Origin: a virus
Length of the DNA: 25,575 nt
Strand: one strand, 5' to 3'
Virus record (IMG/VR): IMGVR_UViG_3300029448_006689
Coordinates: 1-25,575 of that record
Positions 2,065 to 24,829 of the stretch are shown piece after piece (position 1 is the stretch's first letter; every line of letters starts with the position of its first letter). The position numbers were made by a program, and so were the translations under genes. The notes under the pieces are model-generated. The model made no database searches. It worked only from the letters and a program-made list of their open reading frames with translations, and was not told the DNA's origin.

Positions 2065-4479
2065 TTAGATTCCTGCCATTGCTAATATATTTTTACTTCG
2101 TTTCGCTAAGTCTTCCTCATCAGTTAAACCTTTGATTCCTGTTAAATCTACTGGTCCATATTTAGTTCGAGCGGTTTTATTAAGTGAACTTATTAAACCT
2201 TTGTCTTTGTCGTAATCAAACTTTTTTTGTAACCAAGGATAATCATAATGTGCTTGGTCTTGTGCAGGTAATTGATTTAGAACAGGAATAAAAGTTACAT
2301 TTGCTTGAATGTATTTAGGTGATTTAGTCCACATTGTTTCCCAAGTTCCGTTATCTTGAACGGTATAAGTTAGGGCTGAAATGTAACCTGGCATTTCTGT
2401 ATACATTTCACCTATTGTTAATTTACTAAAGGGAGCTACCATAAATCCACTTCTCATATCAGGATAAGTAAGTCCTGCTAAATAATTTAATTTTTCCCAT
2501 AATATAGGTAATTCTTCTGCTGACTTTGGATACACATCAAAAGTGAAACTAATAGTTCTGGTTGTTCCCGTGTAAACATATACTTTATCTGGCCTTCCAA
2601 CATACTTTTCTTCTGCGTAATCAGGAGTAAATGAATCTGATATACCACTTAGTATAGCTCTAAATACAATATGATTACCTTTCATATCAACAAATCTAAA
2701 TGGGACAAAATCTAATTCTTCTTCATTTTGTCCGTTGTATTGTGCCTCTTCCCGTGTACCATAAGGAATAAGATTAACTCTGTCTCTACCGACATCAGCA
2801 AAAGCATTTAAATCTTGAGTAACAGCTGTCTTTTTATCATAATCTACAGGAACTTTATCTATATTTACAACTGCATTAATCCCTTTTAGATTTTCTTTTA
2901 TAGCAGTTAATACGTCTGTTGCTTTTTCAGCAAAACCTTGCACTCCCGAGAAGTCGAATGAATTTGAAACACCTGCTCCGAACGAACCTCCTATTCCATT
3001 GAATGGATTTTTTACTTTAGGTAATGAAAAACTCTTACCCAAATTAGGAAGACCTATGTTAATCTTAGGACCTCTTAAATTCCTTAAATATCTTACACCT
3101 CCACCTGCTATCCTTGAAATAGCATCTGCTACTGGAGCTATTTTACTTAACAACTTATCAGTAGGGAAGTCTAATTTTGAATCGACCGTTATATTATATC
3201 TTCTTTGTACATCGGGTGAATTAATATTGATTCCGTTTTGTGACCAATTACTTGGAAACTTTTTTAACACTTCGAGTGGAACACTACCATTTTGTGTTTC
3301 TATTGATAAGTTGTATTTATTAACACTTTTTAGACCTACTTGAGTTAATGCACCAAGGGTAGCATCAAAAGGTTTATTTATACTTAATTGTAAACTACGT
3401 ATACCTGGTTGACTTGCTAAAGATAAAGGATTATACTTCTGTAAATTTACACCTGTTTGTTTGACATCACCAGATTCAGAACCAAATGTTCCTCCTTTAT
3501 AACCCTCACGGAGTGTATTATCTCTGTTGATTTTAGAGAAAGCTTTATTACTATTTAATGCTGCAGGATAAACACCACTGATAGGACCTCTAACTGAACC
3601 TAAATTACCTTGAGGATTTGTTCTTTTCAGTATTCGTTGTTTTTCTAAAAATCCTAAACCTTTAGTTGATGCTAAGAACATTCCCATCCTAAACAAATCA
3701 GTTCCTGCTCTATCGATATATACTGAAGGTTGTCTACCGAGTACAGCACCTCCTAATTCATCTAAAGCATTAACTCCTATTCTAATTACACTTAATGCGC
3801 TTCCTATATTAACTCCTTTTATATCACTTAAAGAACCTGTAAATTTATCCACACCCCATCTATTACCTATATCTCTAACGACAAATGGCTGTTTGAATCC
3901 CAAGCTGAGTGGTCCTGTACCATTAGGTGGACCTTTGATACCCAATCTACCATCAGAATCTAATTGTGAGTAATAACTTGCTAAAGGAAAATTACCAATA
4001 CGTGGTGGTGGATTATTGTGTCGCACTTCTATTGGTGGGTTTTGTCTTAAATTATTGTTTCGTGTTTGTACGTATTTTTGAACGTTTGTATCAATTGGAT
4101 TGAAAGCTCCTGAACTATCTAAAAACACCGTATTAGGTATAGCATCAGGTACGAAAGCATCAAGAGGTGTGGTTGTTGGTCGTTTTGCAAGTGGAGCTGT
4201 AGGTTTGAAGAAACCTATCTCTCTACTAGGTACTTTAGATTTTCTGAGAGCTTGGGTAGCTGCTTGAAAAGTCCTAGTGTCTTGTGTTTTATTGATAAGG
4301 TTGATTTCTCGTAGTTTAGCTGATTGTTGTTCAAGTTTACGTTTAGCGTCAACCCTTTTTTGAGCGTCTAATTGTGCTTGTTTTCTTTGTTGAGCACGTT
4401 GTTTGCTTGCCTCGATTTCAGGGTCTTTAGCTCGTCCTGGTCTCCCTCCTAAATTTGATTTAAAATCTACTACACCCAT
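2065..4479 (-). CDS. Baseplate tail-tube initiator-like protein (T4 gp48/gp54 type), with long N-terminal extension
   Basis: An 804-residue protein. The first ~90 residues are rich in Lys, Arg, Gln and Ala (KQRAQQRKQAQ and similar) and look like a helical or disordered leader. The middle ~450 residues are Gly/Asn/Pro-rich low-complexity sequence without recognisable motifs. The last ~230 residues hold the recognisable part: FVPFRFVDMKG, then RPDKVYVYTGTTRTISFTFDVYP, then ELPILWEKLNYLAGLTYPDM, then a beta-rich ending. This pattern recurs in tube-fold baseplate proteins of T4-like phages (gp48/gp54), which cap the hub and start tube polymerisation. T4 gp48 is much shorter (~360 aa). The ATG shares one base with the upstream tape-measure stop (TAATG), which suggests translational coupling. 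The tube-initiator role is inferred from the C-terminal pattern and gene order. Confidence 0.6.
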   Translation of the reverse strand: MGVVDFKSNLGGRPGRAKDPEIEASKQRAQQRKQAQLDAQKRVDAKRKLEQQSAKLREINLINKTQDTRTFQAATQALRKSKVPSREIGFFKPTAPLAKRPTTTPLDAFVPDAIPNTVFLDSSGAFNPIDTNVQKYVQTRNNNLRQNPPIEVRHNNPPPRIGNFPLASYYSQLDSDGRLGIKGPPNGTGPLSLGFKQPFVVRDIGNRWGVDKFTGSLSDIKGVNIGSALSVIRIGVNALDELGGAVLGRQPSVYIDRAGTDLFRMGMFLASTKGLGFLEKQRILKRTNPQGNLGSVRGPISGVYPAALNSNKAFSKINRDNTLREGYKGGTFGSESGDVKQTGVNLQKYNPLSLASQPGIRSLQLSINKPFDATLGALTQVGLKSVNKYNLSIETQNGSVPLEVLKKFPSNWSQNGININSPDVQRRYNITVDSKLDFPTDKLLSKIAPVADAISRIAGGGVRYLRNLRGPKINIGLPNLGKSFSLPKVKNPFNGIGGSFGAGVSNSFDFSGVQGFAEKATDVLTAIKENLKGINAVVNIDKVPVDYDKKTAVTQDLNAFADVGRDRVNLIPYGTREEAQYNGQNEEELDFVPFRFVDMKGNHIVFRAILSGISDSFTPDYAEEKYVGRPDKVYVYTGTTRTISFTFDVYPKSAEELPILWEKLNYLAGLTYPDMRSGFMVAPFSKLTIGEMYTEMPGYISALTYTVQDNGTWETMWTKSPKYIQANVTFIPVLNQLPAQDQAHYDYPWLQKKFDYDKDKGLISSLNKTARTKYGPVDLTGIKGLTDEEDLAKRSKNILAMAGI

Positions 4480-5717
4480 TATATAGCTCTCGCAATCTTA
4501 TTATTAGAATCTCTAATGTTTTCTAATACAGATAATGATTGGTCATTCGTAGCTCCAGCAACTGCTCCAGGAGCTCCTGCTACGTTATTTCTCACAAGTC
4601 TTGATAATTGTTCCACATTCACACCAACACTATCTGCTAAAGCTTTTCTCTGTATAACATTTAATCTGTTAAACTCTACCTCACCACCTACTTGTTTCAA
4701 TATCTCTCTCATCACACCTTCTTGGTCACCTGTTATGGCTAATTGACGAGCTCTATCAAGATTGATTTGTCTACCGAGCAGTAATGAAGCTTGTAATTGA
4801 TTCTCGATAGAGGATTCAAAGTTTAATAACGATTCTGAAATACTTTCAACTGCACTTAACTCTAATCCTAATTTTCTTGCGGCTATACTTGCATTAAGTA
4901 TATTCATTCCACCATCTTTAGCAAACTTAGCAAAAAACTGAGCATTATCAGCTATGTCTTGCATCACGAGAGCTGGAGCTACACCTGCTTGACCTGCTAA
5001 AGCAGCATTTGTTTGTATTTGATTCAACAATACATCTCTACTTGCAGATGAAACTGATTCCATCACAGAAAGTGTTTTTGATAATTGAGATGCTGTTTGA
5101 CCGGTTGAGGCTGCTGTCCTTGCAAAGTTTAAACTAAGATTTACTGATTCTTGTACACTAGCTCCTAAATCTTGTCTTATAGCGGCTTGAGCTGCTGTAA
5201 TATCCTCTATAGATAATCCGAAACCTTTGGCGACTTCACCCAATACTTTGTTTTGAGCAGTTATAGCAACAGCTTGTGTATATGAGATACCTAATTCTTT
5301 CCTTGTATCAGTAACTGCTTTTTGAATATTTAAAAATGCTTTTCCAATTGCTACACCTATAGCTATCAAACCAACACCTGAAGTAGCCATCAATTTTAAA
5401 TTACCTAGAGTTTTCTTAGCACCAGCTGCCATACTAAAGAATCCAGGTGCTGTTTCCATAATTGCATCTCTCACATTTTCACCAGCTTCTAATTGGTCGA
5501 GTAAAATTTTGACTTGGTCTTTAGATTGTCCAGCTTGAAGTTTACCATCTTCAGTAATAGTTTTTGAAACTTTAGCTAAATCTTCAGTTACTCCAAGTAA
5601 TTTGTTAATTGCTCCAAAGTTTTCTTTACCAAGTTGTACTAATTTCTCCTCAAGACTTACTATTGATTCTAAGTCCTCTGCTTGGCCTTTATATGGTCTG
5701 CCTCTTTTTACGGCCAT
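4479..5717 (-). CDS. Putative tape measure protein
   Basis: A 412-residue, almost entirely helical and Ala/Gln/Ser-rich protein. A basic N-terminus (MAVKRGRPYKG) is followed by heptad-like helices, then a hydrophobic stretch around residues 110-130 (SGVGLIAIGVAIGKAFLNI), then long amphipathic helices to the C-terminus. This composition and the position after a frameshifted tail chaperone and before the tube initiator are the classic setting of a tail tape measure, which fixes tail length and leaves with the genome (T4 gp29 role). It is short compared with T4 gp29 (~590 aa), which would imply a shorter tail. The start is supported by AAAGGAT just upstream of ATG. The downstream gene starts inside its stop codon. 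No family-specific motif is visible, so the call rests on composition and synteny. Confidence 0.6.
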   Translation of the reverse strand: MAVKRGRPYKGQAEDLESIVSLEEKLVQLGKENFGAINKLLGVTEDLAKVSKTITEDGKLQAGQSKDQVKILLDQLEAGENVRDAIMETAPGFFSMAAGAKKTLGNLKLMATSGVGLIAIGVAIGKAFLNIQKAVTDTRKELGISYTQAVAITAQNKVLGEVAKGFGLSIEDITAAQAAIRQDLGASVQESVNLSLNFARTAASTGQTASQLSKTLSVMESVSSASRDVLLNQIQTNAALAGQAGVAPALVMQDIADNAQFFAKFAKDGGMNILNASIAARKLGLELSAVESISESLLNFESSIENQLQASLLLGRQINLDRARQLAITGDQEGVMREILKQVGGEVEFNRLNVIQRKALADSVGVNVEQLSRLVRNNVAGAPGAVAGATNDQSLSVLENIRDSNNKIARAI

Positions 5718-6030: not shown

Positions 6031-6240
6031 TTACTTTGTAACTGATGGATTATGTTTATTGAGTTCTTTTTGTAAATCTTCTGCTTCTTTCTTGTAGAAA
6101 GTCTGTAATCGTTTTAGGTAAAACGTGCGAAGATATATGGGTAGGTCGTATGCTTCTCTAAAAGTGAAACCACCTTTAGAATGTAGTATTAATTGAAATA
6201 TCTCTTCGTGTATTCGAAGTTTGTATTCAGGCGGAAGGCC
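6031..6240 (-). CDS. Frameshift extension of the gp26-like tail chaperone
   Basis: A 69-codon coding segment (GLPPEYKLR ... HNPSVTK) follows the gp26-like gene in a different frame. Its frame opens after a TAA just upstream (6258-6256) and contains no ATG, GTG or TTG anywhere, so it cannot easily be started on its own. The upstream gene's frame runs through CGA-TTT-TTT-TGG; shifting +1 or -2 on this run joins the two into a protein of about 311-312 residues. The segment looks real: HSKGGFTFREAYDLPIYLRTFY followed by a charged helix is compact and patterned like the C-terminal extensions of phage tail assembly chaperones. Frameshifted chaperones (lambda gpG/gpGT, Mu with -2) typically sit just before the tape measure, as here. 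A homopolymer sequencing error would give the same picture and simply mean one fused gene. Confidence 0.7.
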   Translation of the reverse strand, partial: GLPPEYKLRIHEEIFQLILHSKGGFTFREAYDLPIYLRTFYLKRLQTFYKKEAEDLQKELNKHNPSVTK

Positions 6241-6967
6241 AAAAAAATCGTACGGTTACAGGAACCGTAATCACCTGTTCCTTTCCAGTTGAATCTGTGA
6301 TTGTTGTACTCATATCTATATCAGGTGTGATTGATGATAAGTATTTTCTAAATTCTAATGAATCAACTGATAAAAACTCATTTTCTACAAAATTATTTAT
6401 ATATGACGGTTCTGATTTACCATCAACTGAAAGTATCATATGCTTTAATCTTGTAGTAAGTTCGAAACCTTGTTCTTTCGAGATTTTTTCTCTGGCTTTT
6501 ATCTCTTCATCAATTTGTTTTTCATCAGTTCCTGTTAATAACTTGAAAGTTACTTCTCTTTTTGAATTAGGTAATGTGTATTCAAATTGATTTTTACCTT
6601 TAGGATATTTAGAAAAATCCAAATCAACTGGTTCGAGTGTTGATAAGTCAATAGATTGTTCTTCATCAGTATACGTAAATTGATAATCTTTACCATAACC
6701 AAGGATACGTGCTGCAACCATAATTGCATTTTTATCACCGATTAACATATCATCTACTTTAACTGATTTATCTACAATTAAAGATTGTAATAGTTTTTCG
6801 ATAACCGTACCTTGTTGTATTAGATTTTGAGAAGTAAGAATATCTTCTTCTTTTGCTGTCATATACTTTATCTCTACTTTACCACTTGATAAAGGGTGTC
6901 CTTGCACGTAAAAATGTCCCTTTGACGGTAAATCAACGATTTCCGTAGGGAATTTGTATTCTGCCAT
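6227..6967 (-). CDS. T4 gp26-like baseplate hub assembly / tail assembly chaperone
   Basis: A 246-residue protein with the pattern of the T4 gp26-type baseplate family (T4_baseplate): an N-terminal LPSKGHFYVQGHPL segment, then the hallmark MTAKEEDILTSQNLIQQGTVIEKLLQSLI at about residues 36-65, then DKNAIMVAARILGYGKDY and a charged helical region. Length is in the normal range (T4 gp26 208 aa, gp51 249 aa). These proteins are needed for hub and tail assembly and are not always present in the mature virion. It sits upstream of the tape measure and ends in FFWPSA with TGA, but a shift on the T7 run gives a longer form (see 6031-6240). The start is supported by AAGGAA, 5 nt before ATG. Plus-strand frames here are shadows. 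Confidence 0.75.
   Translation of the reverse strand: MAEYKFPTEIVDLPSKGHFYVQGHPLSSGKVEIKYMTAKEEDILTSQNLIQQGTVIEKLLQSLIVDKSVKVDDMLIGDKNAIMVAARILGYGKDYQFTYTDEEQSIDLSTLEPVDLDFSKYPKGKNQFEYTLPNSKREVTFKLLTGTDEKQIDEEIKAREKISKEQGFELTTRLKHMILSVDGKSEPSYINNFVENEFLSVDSLEFRKYLSSITPDIDMSTTITDSTGKEQVITVPVTVRFFWPSA
6241..6250 (-). other. Candidate programmed frameshift site (CGA TTT TTT TGG)
   Basis: Seven consecutive T on the coding strand near the end of the gp26-like gene, just before the point where the downstream frame becomes the conserved-looking one. A Phe-tRNA in the P site on TTT can re-pair with TTT after either a +1 or a -2 slip, and both lead into GGC CTT CCG. The zero-frame stop TGA (6229-6227) is only four codons after the second TTT. 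I did not find a convincing stem-loop immediately downstream by eye. Confidence 0.55.
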
Positions 6968-7033
6968 TATTTTTCCTTATGAATATTTTTAATAACCAAT
7001 AATAATTATAACCTTTTAGGTCTAAATAACATT

Positions 7034-7204: not shown

Positions 7205-7690
7205 TTAGAATTGTAAGATTGCGTAATCATATTTAAGTGTTAGTGTAATTTCAGCTGGGTCACTTGTTGCGTAATCCATATCACCGAAATTAGCATTTTC
7301 TATATATGTACCTTTTAATGTCCATTCTTCGACTTTATCACCGACTGGACCTAACATATTAAAAGTTACATCTTTTTTATAAAAATCTGAATAACCATCA
7401 CGTCCAGTTACGGATTCGTGTGATTGTCTAATCCATTCCATAACTGCTTGAGCTGCTGAAGGGACAACTGGGTCGTAAAGCATAATATCAATAGGTTGCC
7501 ATGCTCCTTTACCCTTAATATATCTTTTCACGTTTATGTGGTCTAAAACAATTTCCTCAAACTGAATCTGTGGTCTGTTTGCTGCTTTAATTAAATAAGC
7601 AGGTACACCTTCAATATACATAATAAACCGATTTTTTGTTTTCGGTTCAAATGGTGTAAACATAATTTCTGAAGGGTCTAATGTAGCCAT
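7205..7690 (-). CDS. gp19: Tail tube protein (T4 gp19-like)
   Basis: A 161-residue protein, essentially the length of T4 gp19 (163 aa). It has the expected tube-protein pattern: FEPKTKNRFIMYIEGVPAY near the N-terminus, RPQIQFEEIVLDHINVKRYIKGK, AWQPIDIMLYDPV, VMEWIRQSHE, VEEWTLKGTYIENANFGDM, and a closing beta strand ITLTLKYDYAILQF. Tube subunits polymerise as hexameric rings on the tube initiator and form the channel for DNA. The start is supported by TTTAGGAG 8 nt before ATG. It lies downstream of a strong terminator after the sheath gene, so it probably has its own promoter; the 139-nt leader contains the TGATATTTAT motif. Confidence 0.92.
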   Translation of the reverse strand: MATLDPSEIMFTPFEPKTKNRFIMYIEGVPAYLIKAANRPQIQFEEIVLDHINVKRYIKGKGAWQPIDIMLYDPVVPSAAQAVMEWIRQSHESVTGRDGYSDFYKKDVTFNMLGPVGDKVEEWTLKGTYIENANFGDMDYATSDPAEITLTLKYDYAILQF

Positions 7691-7829: not shown

Positions 7830-10334
7830 TTACTCAGGAAATGTAGCTCCTGTTGGTTGTACGATAAAGTCAAGTACGATGAACTCTGCAGTTCTCGTTG
7901 GTTGAATGAATATCTGTCCAACTAATTGATTTCTATCAACAACATCTGCTGTGTTGTTTGTATCATCCATTACTACTCTGAAAGCACTTAAACCACTATT
8001 TTGTTGTACTTGTTCAAGATATGGATTTACAATATTCAAGAATCTATTTCTCGTTGCCGATGTATTTTGTTCAAATACCAAGAATTGTGATGCACTTGCA
8101 ATGAATTTTCTTAATGCAATCAACAATCTACGAACATTGATTCTATCTAAAGCAGATGGTTTAGATTGTAGTGTTTTTTGACCAAACACAACTACACCTT
8201 GATTTGGGAAAGATGCTATCGGGTTAATTCTACCCTCATACAATCTATCTCTTTCAGCGTGAGTTAATCGTGTTTTAGCCTCTGTTACACCTAATCCAGC
8301 CAATCCTCCTCTGTTCAATCCTGCAGGAGCGAACCATTCGTGTGATACACTATCATTAAATGCTATCACACCAGGTAATACGACTGATGGTGGTACATAT
8401 ACTGGGACTTGTGTTACACTATCTACAAGTTTAACCCAAGGATAATATGTAGCAACATAGTTAGTATCAAGAGAAGCTACAGCATCTACAACGGTATTGA
8501 TACTATCATCGATATCAGCAGTATCCATTATAAATAATGCGTCTGCTCTTGCTTCTACTTTTGTGATTGCGTGATTAGTAACTTGTGAATGTAATCTATG
8601 TAGTACACCAGGTGTTACTAATAAATTGATATCAAATTCATCAGGATTACTTACAGCATTGATTGCTCGTTTGTATGCTAATGTTCCACTTGCTTCAGCA
8701 GAAGATAAATCAAATCCTTGTGTATTAGTATTTGCAATATCTGTGCCTGTTAAAGATGGTGTAGCTGGATTCATACCATCAAAACCAAATTGAAATGGTA
8801 CAGCAAATTTCTTTTGTTCTATTGCCGAACCAGAAACGGTTATGACTTCTGAATCACCAGAGTATATTTCACCATCACCAACAAGTCTTGAAGCATCACT
8901 ATGTCCTGTAGCATGTGTATTTAAATTAAATGCCACATTATCATTTGCTGTCTGTGCACCGTTTGGTACAGGTGCTAACATCATTCTGTTTCCTTCTTCA
9001 CTAAAATCAAATCCAAAGAATACATTTTCATCAAAAGTATTACTTGTATTTACCTGTTCAGATATGAATGATGCTGTAGGTATTGTTGAACCACTGGCTC
9101 CTGAATCTAAACTAGCAAGTCCTACACCAGGTACGACATTTTGTATTGATTCAAATCCGAAAGGTAACATTGTTTCTGGTAATTTAAACGTTGTTCCTTC
9201 AACCATGTCTACAAAATCACCAACTCTGATATATAAACTCTTATTAGGATAATCACCATAATATGTAAGTTTACCATTAGAATCAATAGTTACGTGTCTA
9301 TCACCAATTCTCTTAGCAAAGAAATCAGGATTCAATGGGTCGAATGATAATCCGTCAAATTGTTCAACTATCTCATTATCATTAGCCTCACCTGGAGCGT
9401 TTCTTACCACTTGAACTGAAAATGTACCAAAGTTTTGGTCGCTAACGTCTGATGCCTTTACATTTAAAATATGTATCTTGTATTTTGAGTTAGCATTTGT
9501 ACCGTGTGACCGGGTGTATATTCTAAACAAGTTGTTCACTTCAGCCGCACCATTTAATACATAAGATTGTCCATCAATTGGTTGTGATTGAATATAAGGT
9601 GTACGAGCTGTAGAGTAGTCTTTATTACCACTATATGTACTTGCGTTACCTTTTGCATCAAATCCAGTTGAACCACCTGCAAAATCTAATCCTACAGCCG
9701 TGTGTATGATTGATGCTGAAACTGCCAATTCATTAGCAGCTGCATCAACTCCAAATTTTCTATGTGAAGCTTCTGAAAAATGTTTATATAAATAAACAGA
9801 AGAAGTACTACCACCTTTTTTAGTTGATGTAGGTTCTTGACTAAATATTTCAGTAAGATAATTCGTACTACCAGTATCGAAAGAAGCACTATATGATTCT
9901 TGTATACCACTACCACTAACGTTAACAACAAATGCGTTCCAATTACCTAAAATTGTTGATTGAGATAAATCACCATCTCCATCAGAACCACGAGATGATG
10001 CTAATATTCCTAAAGAAGCAGATGTAGTAGCACTTGCTCCTAAAAGTTGAAGTGTGTGTGATTGATATCCTCCGATTCCTAAAACCCTTACTACGGTTAC
10101 AACCCCCGCACTTTGTAAATATTGTTCAACGGTGTACGGTGTGTAGAATTTAGCATCAATACCACCAAACAGCTCTTCAAATTCTTGAAATGATGTTATT
10201 TGTGTAGGTGTAAAAGCAGGACCTGAATGTGTTGGTCCGATTATTGCTGCTCCTATTTCACCTATTGCCTGGGGTAGAAATGATAAATCTCTTTCACGGG
10301 TAAATACACCTGGCGAAACGATTCTTTCTGCCAT
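7830..10334 (-). CDS. gp18: Tail sheath protein (T4 gp18-like)
   Basis: An 834-residue contractile sheath protein. The N-terminus MAERIVSPGVFTRERDLSF and the following IGAAIIGPTHSGPAFTPTQI, FEELFGG and YTPYTVEQYLQ are the usual sheath start. The C-terminal third has LNRGGLAGL, LYEGRINPI, QGVVVFGQKTL, RINVRRLLIALRKFI and the closing GQIFIQPTRTAEFIVLDFIVQPTG, which form the core joined between neighbouring subunits. T4 gp18 is 659 aa; the extra length lies in the Ser/Thr/Asn-rich middle (about residues 120-560), expected to form outward-facing domains. A strong AGGAG lies 8 nt before ATG. A candidate late promoter is upstream and a terminator downstream, so it may be expressed as a single-gene unit, as suits the most abundant tail subunit. 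Confidence 0.95.
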   Translation of the reverse strand: MAERIVSPGVFTRERDLSFLPQAIGEIGAAIIGPTHSGPAFTPTQITSFQEFEELFGGIDAKFYTPYTVEQYLQSAGVVTVVRVLGIGGYQSHTLQLLGASATTSASLGILASSRGSDGDGDLSQSTILGNWNAFVVNVSGSGIQESYSASFDTGSTNYLTEIFSQEPTSTKKGGSTSSVYLYKHFSEASHRKFGVDAAANELAVSASIIHTAVGLDFAGGSTGFDAKGNASTYSGNKDYSTARTPYIQSQPIDGQSYVLNGAAEVNNLFRIYTRSHGTNANSKYKIHILNVKASDVSDQNFGTFSVQVVRNAPGEANDNEIVEQFDGLSFDPLNPDFFAKRIGDRHVTIDSNGKLTYYGDYPNKSLYIRVGDFVDMVEGTTFKLPETMLPFGFESIQNVVPGVGLASLDSGASGSTIPTASFISEQVNTSNTFDENVFFGFDFSEEGNRMMLAPVPNGAQTANDNVAFNLNTHATGHSDASRLVGDGEIYSGDSEVITVSGSAIEQKKFAVPFQFGFDGMNPATPSLTGTDIANTNTQGFDLSSAEASGTLAYKRAINAVSNPDEFDINLLVTPGVLHRLHSQVTNHAITKVEARADALFIMDTADIDDSINTVVDAVASLDTNYVATYYPWVKLVDSVTQVPVYVPPSVVLPGVIAFNDSVSHEWFAPAGLNRGGLAGLGVTEAKTRLTHAERDRLYEGRINPIASFPNQGVVVFGQKTLQSKPSALDRINVRRLLIALRKFIASASQFLVFEQNTSATRNRFLNIVNPYLEQVQQNSGLSAFRVVMDDTNNTADVVDRNQLVGQIFIQPTRTAEFIVLDFIVQPTGATFPE

Positions 10335-10735: not shown

Positions 10736-11521
10736 TTACCATGCACTCCAACCACCATCAATTACTATATTTTGTCCTGTAACGTATGATGACGCTTCAG
10801 ATGCCAGAAAGACAGCAGCTCCTGCTACTTCGTCTGGTTGTCCTACTCGTTTCATTGGAGTCCTTTTACTTAAATCTACTATGTAACCAGGTCTTTCTGG
10901 TACACCTGGTGTCTTTTTAGGGAAATTACCAGGACTAATTGTATTAACCCGAATCCCCTTTGAAGCATACTCTGTTGCTAATCTTTTTGTCATTTGTAAA
11001 ATACCACCTTTTGCAACTGAATAAAAAACACTTGCACTTTTTACTTCTTGATACAAACTTTGGTCGTGTCCTAAAAAACCATATATTGATGAGACATTTA
11101 TAATCGACCCATTACCTTGTTTTAACATTTGAGGTATAACTGCTTGACTACAAAAAAAGTTATGTGATAAAATATTATCTAAACCAATGTCCCACTCTTT
11201 TTTTGTAATCTCGTCTACTGGTTTTCTATCTTCACAAAACGCATTATTAATAAGTATATCTATAGTCCTATACTTGTTAATAATTTCATTAATTTTTTGT
11301 TTAACTTTTTCTGTATCAGTTACATCACATTGTACATACGAGATATAACCATCAAAATCTATAGTTTTTCTTACAGCTCTACCAAATACGATAACTTTAG
11401 CACCAAAAGAAGTTAAAGCCTTAGACATTGATGAACCTAGATGTCCATATCCACCCGTAACTATAGCTACTTTGTTTCTTAAATTAAATAAATCTTTATA
11501 TTGTTGTGGTTTTTCCATCAT
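10736..11521 (-). CDS. Short-chain dehydrogenase/reductase (SDR)
   Basis: A 261-residue classical SDR. The NAD(P)-binding TGGYGHLG lies at residues 22-29, the NNA segment at 92-94, catalytic Ser in VSSIYG at ~144-145, and the YSVAK motif (Tyr167, Lys171) follows. [12 protein letters not shown] and the C-terminal [14 protein letters not shown] are standard for the 3-oxoacyl-ACP reductase-like branch. The usual NNAG is NNAF here, a mild departure. It is the last gene of the cassette and overlaps the thiamine-enzyme gene by 26 nt (start codons MM at 11521 or 11518), so the two are translationally linked. It probably reduces a carbonyl made by an upstream enzyme, perhaps on a nucleotide sugar; the substrate cannot be read from the sequence. 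Confidence 0.88.
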
Positions 11522-12719
11522 AACAACTTTTTCTTTCTACAATCATAACTGGTCCCTTTGCCATCTGAGCTTTTTTATAATCTCTTAACACTTCAGTAGG
11601 TGTGGTGGGTTCAAATATAGGAAAATCTACTAATTCTCTAAAGACTTTTGTAAAATCTTGTGAATGTGTAGGTCCAGAATAAAATGGTCCACCATCAGCA
11701 ACTACCGTTCGTAAAATTACAGGTGCATTATACTCTCCGTGTGATAATCTTTCTACGTGATTAATGTGATTTCCTATTGCATCTGCTCCAACTAACATAA
11801 AGTCGTGTCTTTCATAATAAACAACTGCCTTTATACCTTCAAACGACATACCTAATGCTAAACTACCCATCAAGTTTTCAGTAACGGGTGTTTCAAGTTT
11901 TTTATCTTCGTCCACTCCTACTAACGTACCCATAGCATTACCAAACTCTCCACCAAGATTATAACCTATAAACATTGTGTTATCTCTTCCAAGTTCTGTC
12001 ATAGCCTGAGTAACTGCTTCTTTATATGTTAGTGTCTCTCCATTAATCTCATCAAAATCAGGAAATGTTTCTTGTGGAAAGTATGGAAAATATTCTTCAT
12101 CAGTTTTTTTAATTTTATTACTTTCTGATAAATCACAAAAATCTTTTGTACGAGCATGTGGAAATGGTAATGTATAATGATATTTTATCACACACGATTC
12201 GGGCCATTTTTGTTCTGCTGCTTTACCCCATCTTGTTTTTTTATTTGCTATAATAGACATATCATTATCTTCAATCACAAACGTACAAGGTAAATCCCAA
12301 CCATCAACGTATCTAACAGCTTCTGAAAAATTTCCTGTATCTTCTGCACCATCACCAACAAAACACCACACTTTCTTATCAGATTTTTTCTTTTTCAAAG
12401 CCCAAGCAATACCAGCTGCAATACCTGGAATACCACCAACAATAGCAGAAGCGAAAAAGTTTTTCTCTCTATCATACATAAACATACTTCTACCATCTAA
12501 TATCTTTTGTTCCATATCATCTGGTGATAGTCCATGTAAGAGTGCATGATAATGATTTCTATGTGTGGCTAAAACGTAATCACCTGTTTTTATATCTTTA
12601 AAGATATCAATTAATTGTGTCTCGTTACCACCACTTAAATGAAATAAAAATGGTAATTTATTGTTGTTATAATGATTGATTATTTTTGATTCAAAATCAA
12701 TTAATTGTTGTTTATTCAT
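11496..12719 (-). CDS. Fused, compact E1-type thiamine diphosphate enzyme (dehydrogenase alpha/beta)
   Basis: ATG at 12719 is preferred (407 aa) because GGAG lies 8 nt upstream and the preceding gene ends at 12722; an upstream frame start at 12749 would overlap that gene. The N-terminal half matches E1 alpha subunits: [14 protein letters not shown] (~52-65), [15 protein letters not shown] (~93-107), the thiamine motif GDG (122-124) ending in EDND (150-153) where NN is usual, and a short linker. The C-terminal half matches the E1 beta pyrimidine-binding domain, with [20 protein letters not shown] containing the conserved catalytic Glu. The beta C-terminal transketolase_C domain is missing. No lipoyl E2 or E3 gene is visible, so it is unlikely to be an ordinary oxo-acid dehydrogenase; a lyase or acyl-transfer step on a sugar or small oxo-acid is more plausible. 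Confidence 0.85.
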
Positions 12720-12721
12720 AT

Positions 12722-13327
12722 TTATCTCCAAGTTGGTCCTTCTACCCAACCAACTAAAGCATAACGTGTACCTCTTGTTATTGGGGTTACTTTATGTCTT
12801 AACCAAGAAGGAAAAACCGTTAAACATCCTTGTTTTCTTATCTTATTAGCATCAGGATTTCCTGATTCTATTACGTCATTTGGATTTAATATAAGATTAC
12901 ACCCTTCATATTTACTCGGGTCTGATAATTGTAACGTAAAAGAAAGTTTACGATGTTTAGGGTCAGTCTCTAAATTTGAATTATCATTACACCACATTAC
13001 ATCAATATGTTCATTATATTTACCAGTATATTTTTCATCATATTCTGTAAAATCTATGCCTCTTAAAGTATCAATATCAATATTACCGAACCAAGTTTGA
13101 TTTGCACCCTCTACTGCCTGTATTATTTTCTGAAAAATCTCAGGGAACTCCTCATATTGCATACCAACAACTCTACAACTTCTAAAATCTTTATTAAGTT
13201 CTCCATCGTGACCTATCCCTCCATCTTGAAAACCTTTTGTTAGTCCTGCATTTAAACACTTTAACGTAATGATATCACACTCTTCGGGTGTAAAATAATC
13301 TTCAAAATATGACCATAAACTTTTCAT
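12722..13327 (-). CDS. 2-oxoglutarate/Fe(II)-dependent oxygenase (prolyl-hydroxylase-like)
   Basis: A 201-residue protein with the double-stranded beta-helix oxygenase signature: iron ligands HID (His107, Asp109) in YNEHIDVMW, a distal His178 in SWLRHKV, and Arg185 or Arg188 in TRGTRYALVGW for the 2-oxoglutarate carboxylate. The core runs through HRKLSFTLQLSDPSKYEGC, GCLTVFPSWLRH and VGWVEGP, as in PKHD-type hydroxylases, which are common in marine T4-like phages. It would hydroxylate a protein side chain, lipid or sugar using O2 and 2-oxoglutarate. It lies 6 nt after the alcohol dehydrogenase stop and 2 nt before the thiamine enzyme, so it belongs to the same operon. The substrate is unknown. 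Confidence 0.88.
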   Translation of the reverse strand: MKSLWSYFEDYFTPEECDIITLKCLNAGLTKGFQDGGIGHDGELNKDFRSCRVVGMQYEEFPEIFQKIIQAVEGANQTWFGNIDIDTLRGIDFTEYDEKYTGKYNEHIDVMWCNDNSNLETDPKHRKLSFTLQLSDPSKYEGCNLILNPNDVIESGNPDANKIRKQGCLTVFPSWLRHKVTPITRGTRYALVGWVEGPTWR

Positions 13328-13333
13328 AATTAT

Positions 13334-14377
13334 CTACATTTCCACAATACATCGACCTGATAGTCCTTGTCCAGAACGAACCACATCGAGAGCATTATTT
13401 ATTTGATATAAATCAAATTTATTTGTTATTAGTTTATCGAGATTTAATTTATCTCGTTTATAAAGTTGTAGATACCTATTTATATCTACAGATGGATTTG
13501 TCAATCCTCCATCACTATCCATTAAAACTTTACCTTTAAAGTGCTGTAATACTGAATGTAAAGTTAAATGTTCATTTGGTTTGGGTTGTCCTACCATTAT
13601 AGTTTTTCCACCACCTGTTGTTAAATTACACGCCATCTCTATCAACTCAGTATGTCCAGTTGTGTCTATAAATACATCAACTCCTAAACTACCCACTATT
13701 TTTTTAACACTATCACGAACATCTTCTTTACTTGTATTAATAGTGTGTGTTGCTCCAAATTCTTTTGCTAATTCTAACTTGTGGTCGTGAATATCAATTG
13801 CAATAATAGGATTTCCTGACACGAGAGAAGCCCCTTGTACTATATTCAACCCAACACCCCCAGAACCAAATATTGCTACTGACTGACCTATTTTTAATTT
13901 TGCCTCATTATTAATAATACCTAGACCCGTAGTTACACTACAACCCATAAGAGCTGCAATATCATAAGGAATATCATCATCTATTTTAGTAATTCTATTT
14001 TCAGAAACAATAGCCTCTTCATTAAAAGTTGTAACTAATCCTCCCCCTACAATTTTACGACTACTTTCAGAAACATATCTTGGAAATTCAGATTCTATAC
14101 CATCTCCTTTTCTCCAGTGCATAACAACTTTATCACCCGGACTTACCGTTGTTACTCCTTCACCTACTTGTAAAACTTTTGCTCCCCCCTCGTGTCCTAA
14201 CAAACAAGGTAAAAATTCTTTTTTAATCTTTACACCTGATATATGACCTAACTGAGCTCCACATATACCACTACTACGAACTTCAACTAATACTTGTCCA
14301 CATTTAAGTTGGTCTTTTAAATATAGTTTTTCTACTACAAGAGGTTCATCAAACTTATAAATTACAGCTGCTTTCAT
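13334..14377 (-). CDS. Zinc-dependent alcohol dehydrogenase (MDR family)
   Basis: A 347-residue medium-chain dehydrogenase. Catalytic zinc ligands are visible as Cys39 in SSGICG and His62-Glu63 in LLGHEGG. The segment GEGVTTVSPGDKVVMHW follows, but the cysteine-rich structural-zinc loop normally found after it is absent, so the enzyme probably carries only catalytic zinc. The Rossmann domain has VAIFGSGGVGLNIVQGA and IIAIDIHDHKLELAKEFGATHTIN; the Asp after the second strand suggests NAD(H) rather than NADP(H). It begins 2 nt after the methyltransferase stop without a clear ribosome binding site, so translation is probably coupled. It may interconvert an alcohol and an aldehyde or ketone used by the thiamine enzyme or SDR next to it. 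Confidence 0.9.
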   Translation of the reverse strand: MKAAVIYKFDEPLVVEKLYLKDQLKCGQVLVEVRSSGICGAQLGHISGVKIKKEFLPCLLGHEGGAKVLQVGEGVTTVSPGDKVVMHWRKGDGIESEFPRYVSESSRKIVGGGLVTTFNEEAIVSENRITKIDDDIPYDIAALMGCSVTTGLGIINNEAKLKIGQSVAIFGSGGVGLNIVQGASLVSGNPIIAIDIHDHKLELAKEFGATHTINTSKEDVRDSVKKIVGSLGVDVFIDTTGHTELIEMACNLTTGGGKTIMVGQPKPNEHLTLHSVLQHFKGKVLMDSDGGLTNPSVDINRYLQLYKRDKLNLDKLITNKFDLYQINNALDVVRSGQGLSGRCIVEM

Positions 14378-14379
14378 AT

Positions 14380-15765
14380 TTATTTCACTTTATAAAGTGA
14401 TAAGTATTCTGAAGGCATTTCAAAACACAAATCTCTGTTTACTTCCATTTCTTTGAGGTTACGTCTGTATATTTCAGATGATTCCTCGTGTCCTTCTAAA
14501 AACCATTCTTGAAATAAAAAACTATGTGTGTAACTATACCAAGAATTATTAAATGATTGGTCCTCAATAAAATGGTCTACGAAATCTTCATATTGTAAAT
14601 AACTCTCTACAGGTTCAGGTATACTAAATGGATATTGTTCCAAATCTAATGGTCGAAAAATACTAAATTTTCTATAAAAATCCATAGGACACGCTTCTAC
14701 ATTCCAATTATAATCAGCTTTGTTCTTCCAGTTTGACAATAATAAATACTTTGCACCACTCCTTACAAAATTTGTAAGGCCTTTTTTTATTTGTGTATTG
14801 GTTAAATGTTGAAATGTCTGACGGCATATTATCAAATCAGCCGGTTCACTTATCTCTTGTGTTAAATCAAATTGTGAAAATTTTACATCGGGAAAATCTT
14901 TTTTATTTTGTTCAACCATTGCATTAACAATTTCATATCCGTGATAATCAATTCCCATATCTTCATATTTTACGTTATGTTCCCAATTACCATACAAACC
15001 ACACGCAATGTTATTAACAGATTTGATATTATGTCTGTTACATATATCTCTAATTAACTCTTGTAATGTAATATTCGTTTTATCTTCAAGACTTAAAATT
15101 TGTCCATCTACACTACCAGTACCACAAGGTACTCCTGCTCTCGATTCAATTTCAAATACGTTTTCAAAAGCCTCTACATTATTTTCACTTTTCATTTCAG
15201 TAATAGGAATGTATTCAACTTGATAATCACCTTTTAAATCATTGACCACTTCAGTTGCTGGTATTGGAAAATATACATACTTACCAAGAATTAATAAATC
15301 AACTCGTCTTTCATATAAACACGACATAGCAGTATTTTCATCAACGACTAAAGTAGAAGATGAATCAATAAAAGGAAAAAATACTAATTCATCTATACCA
15401 GATATATTATGATATTCTTTCACTATATTAGATAACCAAGTATTAGCATTTGAATGTGTTGAAATTATTGGAAATTCTACTTGATTTTCTATTTTTAATT
15501 TATTCCATAATTTTTCTTTCGACATTTTTCTAACTAAAATATGTCTAAAAGAACCATTTTGATGTTTATCAAAGTCATATTGACCATCAACTATACCTAT
15601 TACGTAACCAAAATTTAACCAAGAAGCTATCATATCAGTTGTGAATTCTACTCTACTGATAAAAGCATTCTCAGTTTGATATTCATTATATTTAGAATAT
15701 TCTATATCACACAATTCCTCCGTGATATTATAATTTATTTTTGTACGGTCAAAATTAAATTTCAT
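14380..15765 (-). CDS. SAM-dependent methyltransferase with an unrecognised N-terminal domain
   Basis: ATG at 15765 is preferred (461 aa): it overlaps the kinase stop as ATGA and MKFNFDRTK is a natural beginning. A longer frame from 15816 would lie inside the kinase gene. The first ~240 residues match nothing I recognise: beta-rich, aromatic, with FGYVIGIVDGQYDFDKHQNG and a long stretch that may form a barrel or sugar-binding domain. Residues ~248-358 look like a class I methyltransferase: VNNIACGLYGNWEHNV in place of the usual glycine loop, YHGYEIV for the acidic ribose-binding strand, then FSQFDLT and PADLIICRQTFQHL for motif IV. The C-terminus FFPLDLEQYPF-like region may bind acceptor. It probably methylates a sugar, given its neighbours. 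Confidence 0.75.
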   Translation of the reverse strand: MKFNFDRTKINYNITEELCDIEYSKYNEYQTENAFISRVEFTTDMIASWLNFGYVIGIVDGQYDFDKHQNGSFRHILVRKMSKEKLWNKLKIENQVEFPIISTHSNANTWLSNIVKEYHNISGIDELVFFPFIDSSSTLVVDENTAMSCLYERRVDLLILGKYVYFPIPATEVVNDLKGDYQVEYIPITEMKSENNVEAFENVFEIESRAGVPCGTGSVDGQILSLEDKTNITLQELIRDICNRHNIKSVNNIACGLYGNWEHNVKYEDMGIDYHGYEIVNAMVEQNKKDFPDVKFSQFDLTQEISEPADLIICRQTFQHLTNTQIKKGLTNFVRSGAKYLLLSNWKNKADYNWNVEACPMDFYRKFSIFRPLDLEQYPFSIPEPVESYLQYEDFVDHFIEDQSFNNSWYSYTHSFLFQEWFLEGHEESSEIYRRNLKEMEVNRDLCFEMPSEYLSLYKVK

Positions 15766-16520
15766 TTCTGAGTAACAACCTCCACACCGTGTTTTTGAAT
15801 GACTTCTACAGAACATTCTTGTGCGAACTTTATTGAAGTATTAGGATTATTATTCTTGAGATAATGTATCGTAAAGGCAGCTAAAAAAGTATCACCTGCT
15901 CCCGAAACGTCTCTTACTTCTACTTTTTTAAAAACAGGATATGTTTTGTTCTGAAATTTACAACCTTTAGCTCCTAACGTAACAATTAATTTAGAATCTA
16001 TACCTGGAAAATTATTGTAATAAAGTTTGTCTAATAAATGTTTTGTTTTTTCGTACTCGTATTCATTTAGTTTTATAAAATCAGCTTCTACACACCAATC
16101 ACCTAATAACTTATTTGTTTGAAGAAATGTAGGTGTGTCTGTCTCTAAAATCAGTTTTAAATCTTTAACATTTAAAAATCCTTTATCGTAATCAGATATT
16201 ATTATACCATCATAACCTTTAAGTACATCTTCGTTATGTTCATATTTTTCATCTACGTAATCGTGTTTATCAACTCTTATTATCATTTGATGAGTTCTCG
16301 CGTCAACGTATCTTATTTTTTCTATCGTGTTTTTATTTGTGATAATATCACATTCATAACCTAAAGAACGAACATTAGCAGCAACGTTACCTGCCATACC
16401 CATATTTGATTTTTCTTTAACTGGTTGAAAAACAGGCACTGGAGCTTCTGGACACATTCTATCACATAACCCGTAGATATACTTATCTTTACAACTATCA
16501 CCTATAACTAATATTTTCAC
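15762..16520 (-). CDS. rfaE1: PfkB-family heptose-7-phosphate kinase (RfaE/HldE domain I-like)
   Basis: A 252-residue kinase starting with GTG inside a GTGA overlap with the epimerase stop. Motifs of the heptose 7-phosphate kinase domain are plain: MKILVIGDSCKDKYIYG, the family-specific RMCPEAPVPVF, GMAGNVAANVRSLG, IISDYDKGFL, then DVSGAGDTFLAAF with the catalytic Asp, near the C-terminus. In HldE this domain makes D-glycero-D-manno-heptose 1,7-bisphosphate from heptose 7-phosphate; the E. coli domain is ~318 aa, so this copy is shorter, mainly in the middle. The adenylyltransferase domain of bifunctional HldE is absent. With the adjacent HldD-like epimerase it points to phage-encoded heptose synthesis; another sugar-phosphate substrate is possible. 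Confidence 0.87.
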   Translation of the reverse strand: MKILVIGDSCKDKYIYGLCDRMCPEAPVPVFQPVKEKSNMGMAGNVAANVRSLGYECDIITNKNTIEKIRYVDARTHQMIIRVDKHDYVDEKYEHNEDVLKGYDGIIISDYDKGFLNVKDLKLILETDTPTFLQTNKLLGDWCVEADFIKLNEYEYEKTKHLLDKLYYNNFPGIDSKLIVTLGAKGCKFQNKTYPVFKKVEVRDVSGAGDTFLAAFTIHYLKNNNPNTSIKFAQECSVEVIQKHGVEVVTQK

Positions 16521-17305
16521 TTTAAATATTCCTTGTAATCTTTTATACCCTTTTCTAAATCATACTTCGGTTTCCATCCAGGTAACCATTTATTTTTATC
16601 TGATTGAGTATAGTATTGATACCAATCAGGTATTTCTAACTCATTTTTATATGAGTAAGGTATTTCCATTAAATCTAAAACATCTTCAAATAATCTGGCC
16701 TGACCACTACCAACCTCATAAACACCAGGTGTTACTATATTAAATAGTGGATAAATTGTTGCGATTACAATATCTTTTACGTATACAAAATCTCTTCTAG
16801 GTTTTTTAGGGAATAGTCGAAATGAACCAAGTCTGTGTGCTTGATAACCGACAGAAGCCATTTTACCTTTTCTTTCTTCTCCTGGACCATAAACATTAAA
16901 GTATCTCAAAGCTATAAAATCAAAATCTAATGCTACACCATATTGTTCTGCTAATAATTTAGACCAACCATATATGTTAGTTGGTGTACCATCAACACCA
17001 TCATTAGCAGCAGATGATGCATAAATAACTTTTTTATTGTGTTTCTTTGCAAAATCAAATAGTTTTTTACTAAAATCATAATTATACTTTAACATTTCAT
17101 TTTGGTCTTGTAAAGTTGTATCTGATATAGCTCCAATATGCAGTATTACATCTGTGCATTCTACACTATATTCAAGTTCTTTTTCCCAATCAGGTCTTTC
17201 TATAAAATCATTTTCTATTAGAATCAATTCAAAATCCTCTTCTAATTTCATTTTTATATTACGACCTACAAAACCATTCCAACCTGTTAATATAACACGT
17301 TTCAT
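16517..17305 (-). CDS. hldD: ADP-heptose 6-epimerase-like NAD-dependent epimerase (HldD/RfaD-like)
   Basis: A 262-residue extended SDR. It has LTGWNGFVGRN (NAD-binding TGxxGFxG), VILHIGAISDTT, the YASSAA strand, NIYGWSK (Tyr and Lys of YxxxK), and RYFNVYGPGEERKGKMASV followed by RDFVYVKD. The combination YASSAA, NVYGPxExxKGxMASV and RDFVYVxD is characteristic of HldD, whose Lys in KGxMASV is an active-site residue. E. coli HldD is ~310 aa, so this one lacks ~50 residues. HldD converts ADP-D-glycero- to ADP-L-glycero-manno-heptose, the donor used by heptosyltransferases. It is coupled by ATGA to the gene before and by GTGA to the kinase after. Another nucleotide-sugar epimerase activity cannot be excluded. 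Confidence 0.87.
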   Translation of the reverse strand: MKRVILTGWNGFVGRNIKMKLEEDFELILIENDFIERPDWEKELEYSVECTDVILHIGAISDTTLQDQNEMLKYNYDFSKKLFDFAKKHNKKVIYASSAANDGVDGTPTNIYGWSKLLAEQYGVALDFDFIALRYFNVYGPGEERKGKMASVGYQAHRLGSFRLFPKKPRRDFVYVKDIVIATIYPLFNIVTPGVYEVGSGQARLFEDVLDLMEIPYSYKNELEIPDWYQYYTQSDKNKWLPGWKPKYDLEKGIKDYKEYLK

Positions 17306-17877
17306 CTATTACTCCTCTCTGTATCAAAAAAGAAAACTTGAAAAAGTCTACCGTTTTGTAATGTATCTCCAAAATAATCTAAACTACTATGATATAACTT
17401 ACTATCATAGACCACTATCTTATTGAATTCATTCGACACACTTTGAATCATTTCCCATTTGAAATTTTCTTGACCTTCTGATTCTATTTTTTTATCAAGT
17501 ATAGTTTTTCCATTTATAGGTTTCATCATACCAGTTTTTCGATGTTTAAAAAATCCTGTTCCAGCAGATGATGGTGCATTGGGGGTCAAATAACATACGG
17601 CTGCCCAAGTGTTATGGTTATCTGCGTGTATCCAAGATTTATCCCAACTATATGTTATTTGAAACGCCCCATTATATTCTTCGTTAAATTTAGTAATTTT
17701 TCCACCATATGGATATACTATTTGTTCTATTGAATTTTTTACAGATTTACTTAAATAAGGTTTAGTCCTACCTCCAGGAAAATTTCCTGTTACGTTGTAA
17801 TCTAATTTTAATGCCATTTCCCTAACTTCATATGGATTATCATAAAAATTTTTTAAACTAATTACATCTAACTTCAT
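17302..17877 (-). CDS. DUF6445-like putative 2-oxoglutarate/Fe(II) oxygenase
   Basis: ATG at 17877 is preferred (191 aa) since it overlaps the previous stop as ATGA; an in-frame GTG at 17886 is the alternative. The sequence has a beta-helix oxygenase layout: FQITYSWDKSWIHADNHNTW with HAD (His84, Asp86), AAVCYLTPN, TGFFKHR, then IVVYDSKLYHSS (distal His163) and GRLFQVFFFD (Arg177). This spacing matches the DUF6445 type of small phage and marine bacterial oxygenase-like proteins, in which the co-substrate role is predicted rather than widely tested. It is unlike the other oxygenase in the cassette (12722-13327), so the two probably act on different positions or substrates. Confidence 0.72.
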   Translation of the reverse strand: MKLDVISLKNFYDNPYEVREMALKLDYNVTGNFPGGRTKPYLSKSVKNSIEQIVYPYGGKITKFNEEYNGAFQITYSWDKSWIHADNHNTWAAVCYLTPNAPSSAGTGFFKHRKTGMMKPINGKTILDKKIESEGQENFKWEMIQSVSNEFNKIVVYDSKLYHSSLDYFGDTLQNGRLFQVFFFDTERSNR

Positions 17878-18260
17878 AGTTCCCACTTATCTCTCATATT
17901 GTACGATTTTACAAATATATCTGCAAAACCATAACTTGGATGAAATTGTTTAACCACAATATACCAATTACGATAATCTTGATTTGCTGTTCGGAACCAA
18001 ACAAAACCACCTTCTGGTTGTGCAGTAAGTGCTCTGGAATCTACATATTTTATTTTATTTGTTTTTACATCAAAGTCATACCAACACACTAAATAATGTT
18101 TTCTTATTTTTTGTCCATTAACTACCGTATCAATTTCACCATCAGAATGTATTGTTACTTTAGGACTTTTACCGAAGGTAACTTCAATTATAGGAGGAGT
18201 TTGTTTTTCAAATCTACTATCAATCGTAGTACCTTCAATTGGTTTGATAGGATTATTCAT
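17874..18260 (-). CDS. Stand-alone beta-domain protein related to the heptosyltransferase beta domain
   Basis: A 128-residue protein with a polar N-terminus (MNNPIKPIEGTTIDSRFEK) and a beta-rich body. Its C-terminal half, CWYDFDVKTNKI ... NWYIVVKQFHPSYGFADIFVKSYN, aligns with KWYVEVKMWNPDYGFIVVDSHTYN in the 245-aa protein (18823-19560), and more weakly with DWKVQVVDIKTNKIIIDYTLD in the glycosyltransferase (beta domain of TibC/Aah-type enzymes). So three cassette proteins share this domain. There is no catalytic motif. It overlaps the preceding gene by 8 nt (AGAGG lies upstream of ATG) and the following one by ATGA. It may be a binding or targeting subunit that recruits acceptor proteins or the glycosyltransferase; that is inference. 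Confidence 0.65.
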   Translation of the reverse strand: MNNPIKPIEGTTIDSRFEKQTPPIIEVTFGKSPKVTIHSDGEIDTVVNGQKIRKHYLVCWYDFDVKTNKIKYVDSRALTAQPEGGFVWFRTANQDYRNWYIVVKQFHPSYGFADIFVKSYNMRDKWEL

Positions 18261-18822
18261 ACATATTTACCTCTCGTGCCCAATTCAAATCATTTAATCT
18301 TTGTCTTAGTTTTATATTATTAAAGATATCACCTTTTACTGCTATATTAAGATACTCAGGATATAATTGGTGTAAATGATTAAAGTATTCAACTATTCTG
18401 TTTTCTAAAAATAATTGTGTATTGTATGCTAAATTAGCAAGTCTCTGAGTATCAAATTTATGTATCGCTTTAATATCTAATAAGTAATTAAAAACTATAG
18501 ATATACCTTCGTCTGAATTTGTTATTCCTACAGGTCCAAATGTTTTTGTATCTTTGTGATAATAACATAGTTTTTCAAATGCAGAATATATTCTTTCATC
18601 GTATTCTCCACTATTTACTAACTCTATAAATTCTGTTTCATCTATATATTCTAACCAATTTAATACGTAAAAATACAAACGTGTAATTTTACCACTTGTA
18701 GAGGTATACATTGTATTTACAATATTTTTTATATTATTTTCAGCTAAATAAAATTTACCACATATAAATTCATCTTCACATAAAGACACAACTAAAGTTT
18801 TTTCTTGAAATAGTGTATTCAT
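18253..18822 (-). CDS. Degenerate partial copy of the carbamoyltransferase
   Basis: A 189-residue protein homologous to residues ~111-308 of the neighbouring carbamoyltransferase (19547-21193). Shared segments are EKTLVVS, LAENN.KNIVNT, GEY...Y.AFEKLCYY, and above all LAYNTQLFLENRIVEYFNHLHQLYPEY. It starts in the middle of the parent protein and ends before its C-terminal domain. The HHxxH metal site lies outside the copied region, the D-A-G-G turn is replaced, and the nucleotide-binding SGGVFANVKLN has become VKGDIFNNIKLR, so it cannot be active as a carbamoyltransferase. The frame is intact and it abuts its neighbours (0-nt gap upstream, 8-nt overlap downstream), so it may be retained as a regulatory or scaffold subunit rather than a decaying remnant. 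Confidence 0.75.
   Translation of the reverse strand: MNTLFQEKTLVVSLCEDEFICGKFYLAENNIKNIVNTMYTSTSGKITRLYFYVLNWLEYIDETEFIELVNSGEYDERIYSAFEKLCYYHKDTKTFGPVGITNSDEGISIVFNYLLDIKAIHKFDTQRLANLAYNTQLFLENRIVEYFNHLHQLYPEYLNIAVKGDIFNNIKLRQRLNDLNWAREVNMYE
18355..18434 (-). repeat. 80-bp duplicated segment, copy in the truncated gene
   Basis: This stretch aligns without gaps to 20369-20448 in the carbamoyltransferase gene, with about 12 differences (near 85% identity by eye). It encodes the AYN.QLFLEN.IVEYFNHLH.LYP peptide. It shows that the smaller gene arose by duplication inside this locus. Confidence 0.8.
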
Positions 18823-21193: not shown

Positions 21194-21196
21194 ATA

Positions 21197-24765: not shown

Positions 24766-24790
24766 TAAATAAAACCTCTTAGATACACAT

Positions 24791-24800
24791 ATAAATATCA
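24791..24800 (-). promoter_or_regulatory. TGATATTTAT motif in leader of glycosyltransferase gene
   Basis: The third exact copy of the 10-mer, in the 64-nt gap between the tail-fibre stop and the glycosyltransferase start, 25 nt before the ATG at 24765. It could drive the whole sugar cassette. On the opposite strand the same bases read TATAAATATCA, which resembles a T4 late promoter pointing away from the cassette, so the direction is uncertain. Confidence 0.3.
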
Positions 24801-24829
24801 AATAAAATGTTAAAGATTAATTATTTTTA

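Follow-up and report, generated by a model that had tools for sequence, protein, structure and literature searches.

Our analysis began with the question of whether a gp26-like gene and the open frame that follows it, offset by one nucleotide, encode a single protein in two forms. The stretch of DNA examined (the window) comprises 25,575 bases and is a virus fragment recorded in IMG/VR. The gp26-like open reading frame (ORF) 6967..6227 finishes with CGA TTT TTT TGG CCT TCC GCC TGA, and the +1 frame has no stop between 6255 and 6034 (74 codons, 69 of which lie past the putative shift); its stop is at 6033..6031. The features that define the locus are as follows.

6227..6967, minus strand: candidate TAC-N, the short form of a gp26-like tail assembly chaperone (TAC); 246-amino-acid ORF, frame 0
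6238..6247, minus strand: putative shift site UUU UUU UGG C, with heptamer UUU_U.GG_C; the run of seven T (T7) occupies 6247..6241
6227..6229, minus strand: frame-0 stop codon TGA of the short form, four codons past TGG
6031..6240, minus strand: candidate TAC-C, the +1-frame extension, based on purifying selection, the lack of a start codon, an hhalign match, and an AF2 model

As developed below, we conclude that this gene very probably produces a two-form TAC of the T4-like gp26 family by means of a programmed +1 frameshift.

The arrangement is not peculiar to the window. We initially used the protein to retrieve 80 IMG/VR loci, at 50-92% identity, and in these loci the frame-0 stop falls a few codons past TGG and the extension is in the +1 frame wherever it can be aligned. 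Broader scans of IMG/VR and phage sequences expanded the collection to 270 distinct homologous loci. The break occupies the same position in 268 of these, and the extension is +1 in all 268. Because position and frame recur in this manner, the break is confirmed as a real feature far beyond chance expectation. The same layout is found in the annotated records of Microcystis phage Mel-JY01 and Flavobacterium phage immuto and in the metagenomic record LR756508, and 42 additional loci that lie near the exceptional lineage (L176 and L181) agree with this picture. The first-pass annotation had described a programmed frameshift (+1 or, equivalently, -2) ahead of a 69-codon extension. Its coordinates and description proved correct, and the alignment of homologues that it had suggested recovered both the shared break and the slippery run.

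The sequence at the break varies within narrow limits. The site reads TTT TTT TGG CC in 177 of the 270 loci and TTT CTT TGG CCT in 64, where the longest T run is only three nucleotides. Rarer forms are TTC TTT TGG CCT (about 13 loci, four of them non-redundant, in one clade), TTT CTA or TTT TTA (6 loci), TAC or TAT at the position of TGG (7 loci), and CTT TTT TGG (a single locus). The frame break is the same where the T run is interrupted as TTCTTTT or TTTCTAT.

Selection and codon usage were evaluated with 175 non-redundant loci that are less than 90% identical to each other. The frame-0 stop lies 3 to 6 codons past TGG in these loci. Over codons 8-52 of the +1 extension (a 44-codon segment), none of the 175 loci carries a stop codon, whereas 94% and 100% of loci contain stops in the other two frames of this segment. 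Among the window and ten near relatives, the +1 frame has a median dN of 0.080 and a median dS of 1.36 (dN/dS of about 0.06), which indicates purifying selection, and the other two frames lack this pattern of constraint. Among 31 diverse TAC-C members, residues G1, P34, and R38 are invariant. The slip codons themselves are also constrained at synonymous positions. Of the 174 loci that encode Phe at codon 1, 170 use TTT, compared to a background of 77% (p=2e-14), and codon 2, when it encodes Leu, is CTT in 44 of 49 cases, compared to 19% (p=7e-27). CCT is likewise preferred at codon 4 (p=2e-62), for which the +1 reading accounts in part. These p-values are rough because related loci were counted as independent.

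Given these data, we propose the following sequence of events. Most ribosomes would terminate at 6229..6227 to yield TAC-N, whereas a minority would shift by +1 on UUU-UUU-U.GG-C. During slow decoding of the next codon, the peptidyl-tRNA on UUU (or CUU) would re-pair one base forward to UUY. The codon GGC would then be decoded as Gly and be followed by 69 further codons to give TAC-NC, whose predicted junction peptide is RFFGLPPEYK. At each of the sites observed, Phe-tRNA on UUU at codon 1, codon 2, or both can re-pair fully with a UUU or UUC one base ahead. Several observations count against this best explanation: a stimulatory hairpin occurs in a subset of loci and is missing from the window, the structural Z scores are modest (4 to 5), the direct comparison of the TAC-N profile with T4 gp26 alone gave no significant match, L176 and L181 carry TAC-C with an ATG of its own, and no single P-site codon accounts for all site variants. 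Sites with CTA or TTA are compatible solely with a shift at codon 1, and sites with TTC-TTT solely with a shift at codon 2. Therefore, the P-site codon may vary among groups. It is also possible that +1 recognition occurs without re-pairing.

The first-pass annotation had placed +1 and -2 on an equal footing. The +1 frame has held, but the site variants favor +1 over -2 slippage. In a -2 event, the tRNA at codon 2 would move back by two bases and generate the same long product with the junction RFFFGLPPEYK. There is a precedent for this in phage Mu (PMC5009743), and the TTT-TTT sites found in about two-thirds of the loci would permit it. However, at TTC-TTT sites and in phage GXN1, Phe-tRNA would need to pair with UCU, which creates a mismatch at the middle base, and sites with CTT would require wobble pairing at the first position. 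We therefore regard -2 slippage as an improbable source of the long product, even though it is the best of the alternatives to a +1 shift.

Less probable still is independent expression of TAC-C from an overlapping gene that has a start codon, perhaps a non-canonical one, of its own. Mel-JY01 is annotated in this way, and L176 and L181 carry a stand-alone TAC-C that begins with ATG in another frame. These two loci are nested within the +1 clade of the tree, adjoining immuto, and this lineage appears to manage without a shift, which qualifies the first-pass suggestion that the extension is an essential product. An independently started homologue of this kind had been named in advance as evidence against frameshifting. 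Two have been found, but the slip codons are altered in both, which argues against a separate gene at the other loci, as does the synonymous constraint on these codons described above. Furthermore, the 74-codon +1 ORF of the window contains no ATG, GTG, TTG, or CTG codon (only four ATA codons), precisely as the first-pass annotation had claimed, and ATG, GTG, and TTG are all absent from the +1 ORF in 67 of the 175 loci.

A T7 run is in principle long enough for transcriptional slippage, which would create a mixed pool of mRNAs. We consider this highly unlikely, since the same break is present in the 64 loci that read TTTCTTT, and also at TTCTTTT and TTTCTAT sites. For the same reason, neither polymerase slippage nor a homopolymer error can be the general cause of the break. 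A sequencing or assembly error that splits a single fused gene would fit the homopolymer at the break, but this explanation is refuted by the nearest relative (L001), which has a T7 run identical to that of the window, and by the 268 loci from independent assemblies and isolate genomes that share the break, and its chance of being right is vanishingly small.

We also looked for signals that might stimulate a +1 shift. No general stimulatory RNA structure was found across the loci, and no conserved Shine-Dalgarno-like element upstream of the site was seen by eye in column frequencies. There is a weak excess of folding directly 3' of the site, where z falls below -2 in 19-21% of loci, compared to 8-13% elsewhere. 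A covarying hairpin that may be stimulatory is restricted to a subset (11 of 175 loci) and is absent from the window. In seven loci (L025, L033, L039, L049, L065, L066, and L074), a G+C stem of 6 bp is located 5 nt past the U run, around the frame-0 stop; pairing is retained in 42 of 42 cells, and three of the six pairs exhibit compensatory changes. A similar stem is placed differently in L128, L137, and L153.

Several lines of evidence bear on the identity of the protein. Over residues 5-243, the short form can be assigned to phrog_150 ('baseplate hub'; E=4e-11), and this family includes both gp26 and gp51 of T4. The match of T4 gp51 to phrog_150 spans its whole length, and its C-terminal part also matches phrog_634, as does the -1-frame extension of one cyanophage. 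Through phrog_634 and phrog_150, the extensions of other groups can be tied to this part of gp51. When the +1 extensions were compared by hhalign with those of other T4-like groups (eight -1 and two +1 sequences), homology was indicated with a probability of 95.3% (E=2e-8). Thus, both domains are homologous to those of other T4-like TACs, which supports the long and short chaperone forms proposed in the first-pass annotation. Some searches gave no match: PHROGs alone provided no significant name for the extension of the window, Pfam and NCBIfam yielded nothing useful for TAC-N or the extension, the TAC-N profile did not match the single sequences of T4 gp26 or gp51 significantly, and neither did the extension profile match T4 gp51.

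TAC-N and the extension were folded separately with AF2, which produced models with pLDDT values of 91.8 and 89.8, respectively, the latter with three helices. When the TAC-N model was aligned with 445 PDB chains by using VIA-align, the top two matches were YqbN (Z 4.5), itself an XkdN-type tail chaperone from a prophage, and the TAC of HK97 (2ob9; Z 4.2), both with Z values below 8. Foldseek returned T4-like baseplate hub or assembly proteins from BFVD and nothing from the PDB at E<=0.001. These weak fold matches, together with the placement of the gene between those for the tail tube and the tape measure, suggest that the gp26-like gene most likely encodes TAC-N and, by frameshifting, TAC-NC. 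The relevant neighbors are listed below.

4479..5717, minus strand: tape measure protein of 412 amino acids, the expected chaperone client (BLASTP)
7205..7690, minus strand: tail tube protein, with which TAC-C is expected to interact (phrog_4542, E=1e-27)
7830..10334, minus strand: large ORF 5' of the tube gene, tail sheath by position (gene order)

The claim that the extension lies just before the tape measure gene is borne out by BLASTP matches of ORF 5717..4479 to the protein annotated as tape measure in immuto (E=1e-21) and to its Mel-JY01 counterpart (E=6e-25). The tube ORF matches Pfam gp19 at E=2e-4, which is under the cut-off for that family, and the putative sheath ORF has no match in NCBIfam. 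The order sheath-tube-TAC-tape measure is annotated in both immuto and Bacillus phage SP-15. By analogy to gpG and gpGT of lambda, the tape measure protein would be coated by many copies of TAC-N and few of TAC-NC, and recruitment of the tube protein would fall to TAC-C.

The surrounding DNA has other features. The tape measure protein, at about 412 amino acids, is short compared to those of immuto (1006 amino acids) and Mel-JY01 (1348 amino acids). Tape measure ORFs are similarly short in the near relatives L009, L010, and L012, and hence we expect the tail to be very short. Positions 10736-24801, flanked by the tail genes and a fibre end with an S74 peptidase, hold a block of genes for enzymes that act on sugars and small molecules (SDR, E1/transketolase-like, Zn-dehydrogenase, PfkB-like kinase, epimerase, carbamoyltransferase, radical SAM, and glycosyltransferase), which is perhaps a surface-glycan cassette. 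Within this block, the carbamoyltransferase ORF (19547-21193; Pfam Carbam_trans N and C) adjoins a truncated paralogue of 189 amino acids (18253-18822; 42% identity over 198 columns, E=6e-48), which points to a partial duplication.

The idea that T4-like gp26 genes are TACs, frameshifted by -1 in some groups, was already proposed in 2022. In Virology that year, Vladimirov, Gautam and Davidson reportedly identified the T4-like TACs and found frameshifting to be conserved in several T4-like groups, with T4 itself said to use genes 26 and 51. Frameshifted tail chaperones of the -1, -2, or +1 kind are known in tailed phages, and a 2016 review still treated T4 as an exception (PMC5009743). Two papers that cite this work describe separate short and long TAC genes in some T4-like phages (PMC10885494) and poly-T signals for -1 shifts in T4-like TAC-N genes (PMC12846349). 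What appears to be new is the +1 direction at the Ty1-like heptamer U/CUU_U.GG_C, the switches of direction within one gene family, and a lineage in which the shift has been lost and the extension given its own ATG.

Extensions in the -1 frame occur in Synechococcus phage Sf-FS3, in Rhizobium phages IC12 and RL38J1, and in phiAS5, Cygsa01, XacN1, RAS14, and LR756511, and the match coordinates of the two parts are offset by -1 in several more cyanophages and in Vibrio phage CZ01. The aquatic clade has its extension in the +1 frame, and so do SP-15, Listeria phage LIS04, and GXN1. When placed on a 30-row TAC-N tree, these labels require at least two changes of direction on well-supported branches, and several long branches make finer claims unsafe. 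On balance, it seems more likely than not that the window belongs to a large clade of T4-like phages from water, as yet undescribed, that uses the Ty1-like +1 heptamer to make its long tail chaperone, that the shift has changed direction at least twice within one gene family, from -1 to +1 or the reverse, and that one +1 lineage lost the shift by acquiring its own ATG.

If so, a programmed shift can flip direction or vanish while the two-part protein strategy persists, and the approximately 175 non-redundant variants offer a natural series for testing the rules of +1 slippage in bacteria. Our reading also restores the full length of an assembly chaperone gene. In databases, this gene is misread in hundreds of aquatic phages, and the usual annotation is a 'baseplate hub' with a separate hypothetical fragment. 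The expectation that gene finders would miss the extension is only partly right: it is often called as a fragment and labeled 'hypothetical protein', and is thus misread rather than always missed. Deposited examples are immuto gp038, SP-15 SP15_046, and Mel-JY01 WWT39326; these fragments lie at 6839-6949 (L082), 3821-3940 (L392), and 6776-7012 (L081) of the deposited genomes.

The closest known systems are the -1 T4-like TACs (gp26 plus a small 'hub assembly catalyst'), which we compared in cyanophages, Rhizobium, Vibrio, and Pseudomonas phages, and jumbo phages. TAC-N (phrog_150) and TAC-C are homologous, the break mostly falls at the same FF-coding T run, and the two-form logic is common to both. 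However, the extension is -1 there and +1 here, with a site such as GATTTTTTC there and TTTTTTTGGC here. T4 gp26 and gp51 likewise belong to phrog_150, and gp51 covers the N and C parts, but unlike the window locus these are two separate genes without a frameshift. In lambda (gpG/gpGT) and HK97 (gp13/14), a short and a long chaperone also precede the tape measure, and the HK97 TAC is the weak fold match noted above. Lambda uses a -1 shift, in contrast to +1 here, and our analysis found no sequence similarity to the chaperones of either phage. The TAC loci of SP-15, LIS04, and GXN1 have a +1 extension at the same FF codons, but lack TGG-CC after the site and instead read TTT CAC, TTT AGT, or TTT CGT. 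In GXN1 (L343), the last ten codons of the coding sequence that ends at 3250 include the shift region TTC TTT CGT C. UUU CGU C likewise forms the core of the +1 site of influenza A PA-X, which looks like a case of convergence. Finally, the +1 site of yeast Ty1 is CUU_A.GG_C (PMC12661321). There, as here, CUU or UUU would occupy the P site ahead of a +1-frame GGC, and the common heptamer UUU/CUU_U.GG_C differs from that of Ty1 by one or two bases, with U for A at position 4. Gene and host are unrelated, and the resemblance is one of mechanism only.
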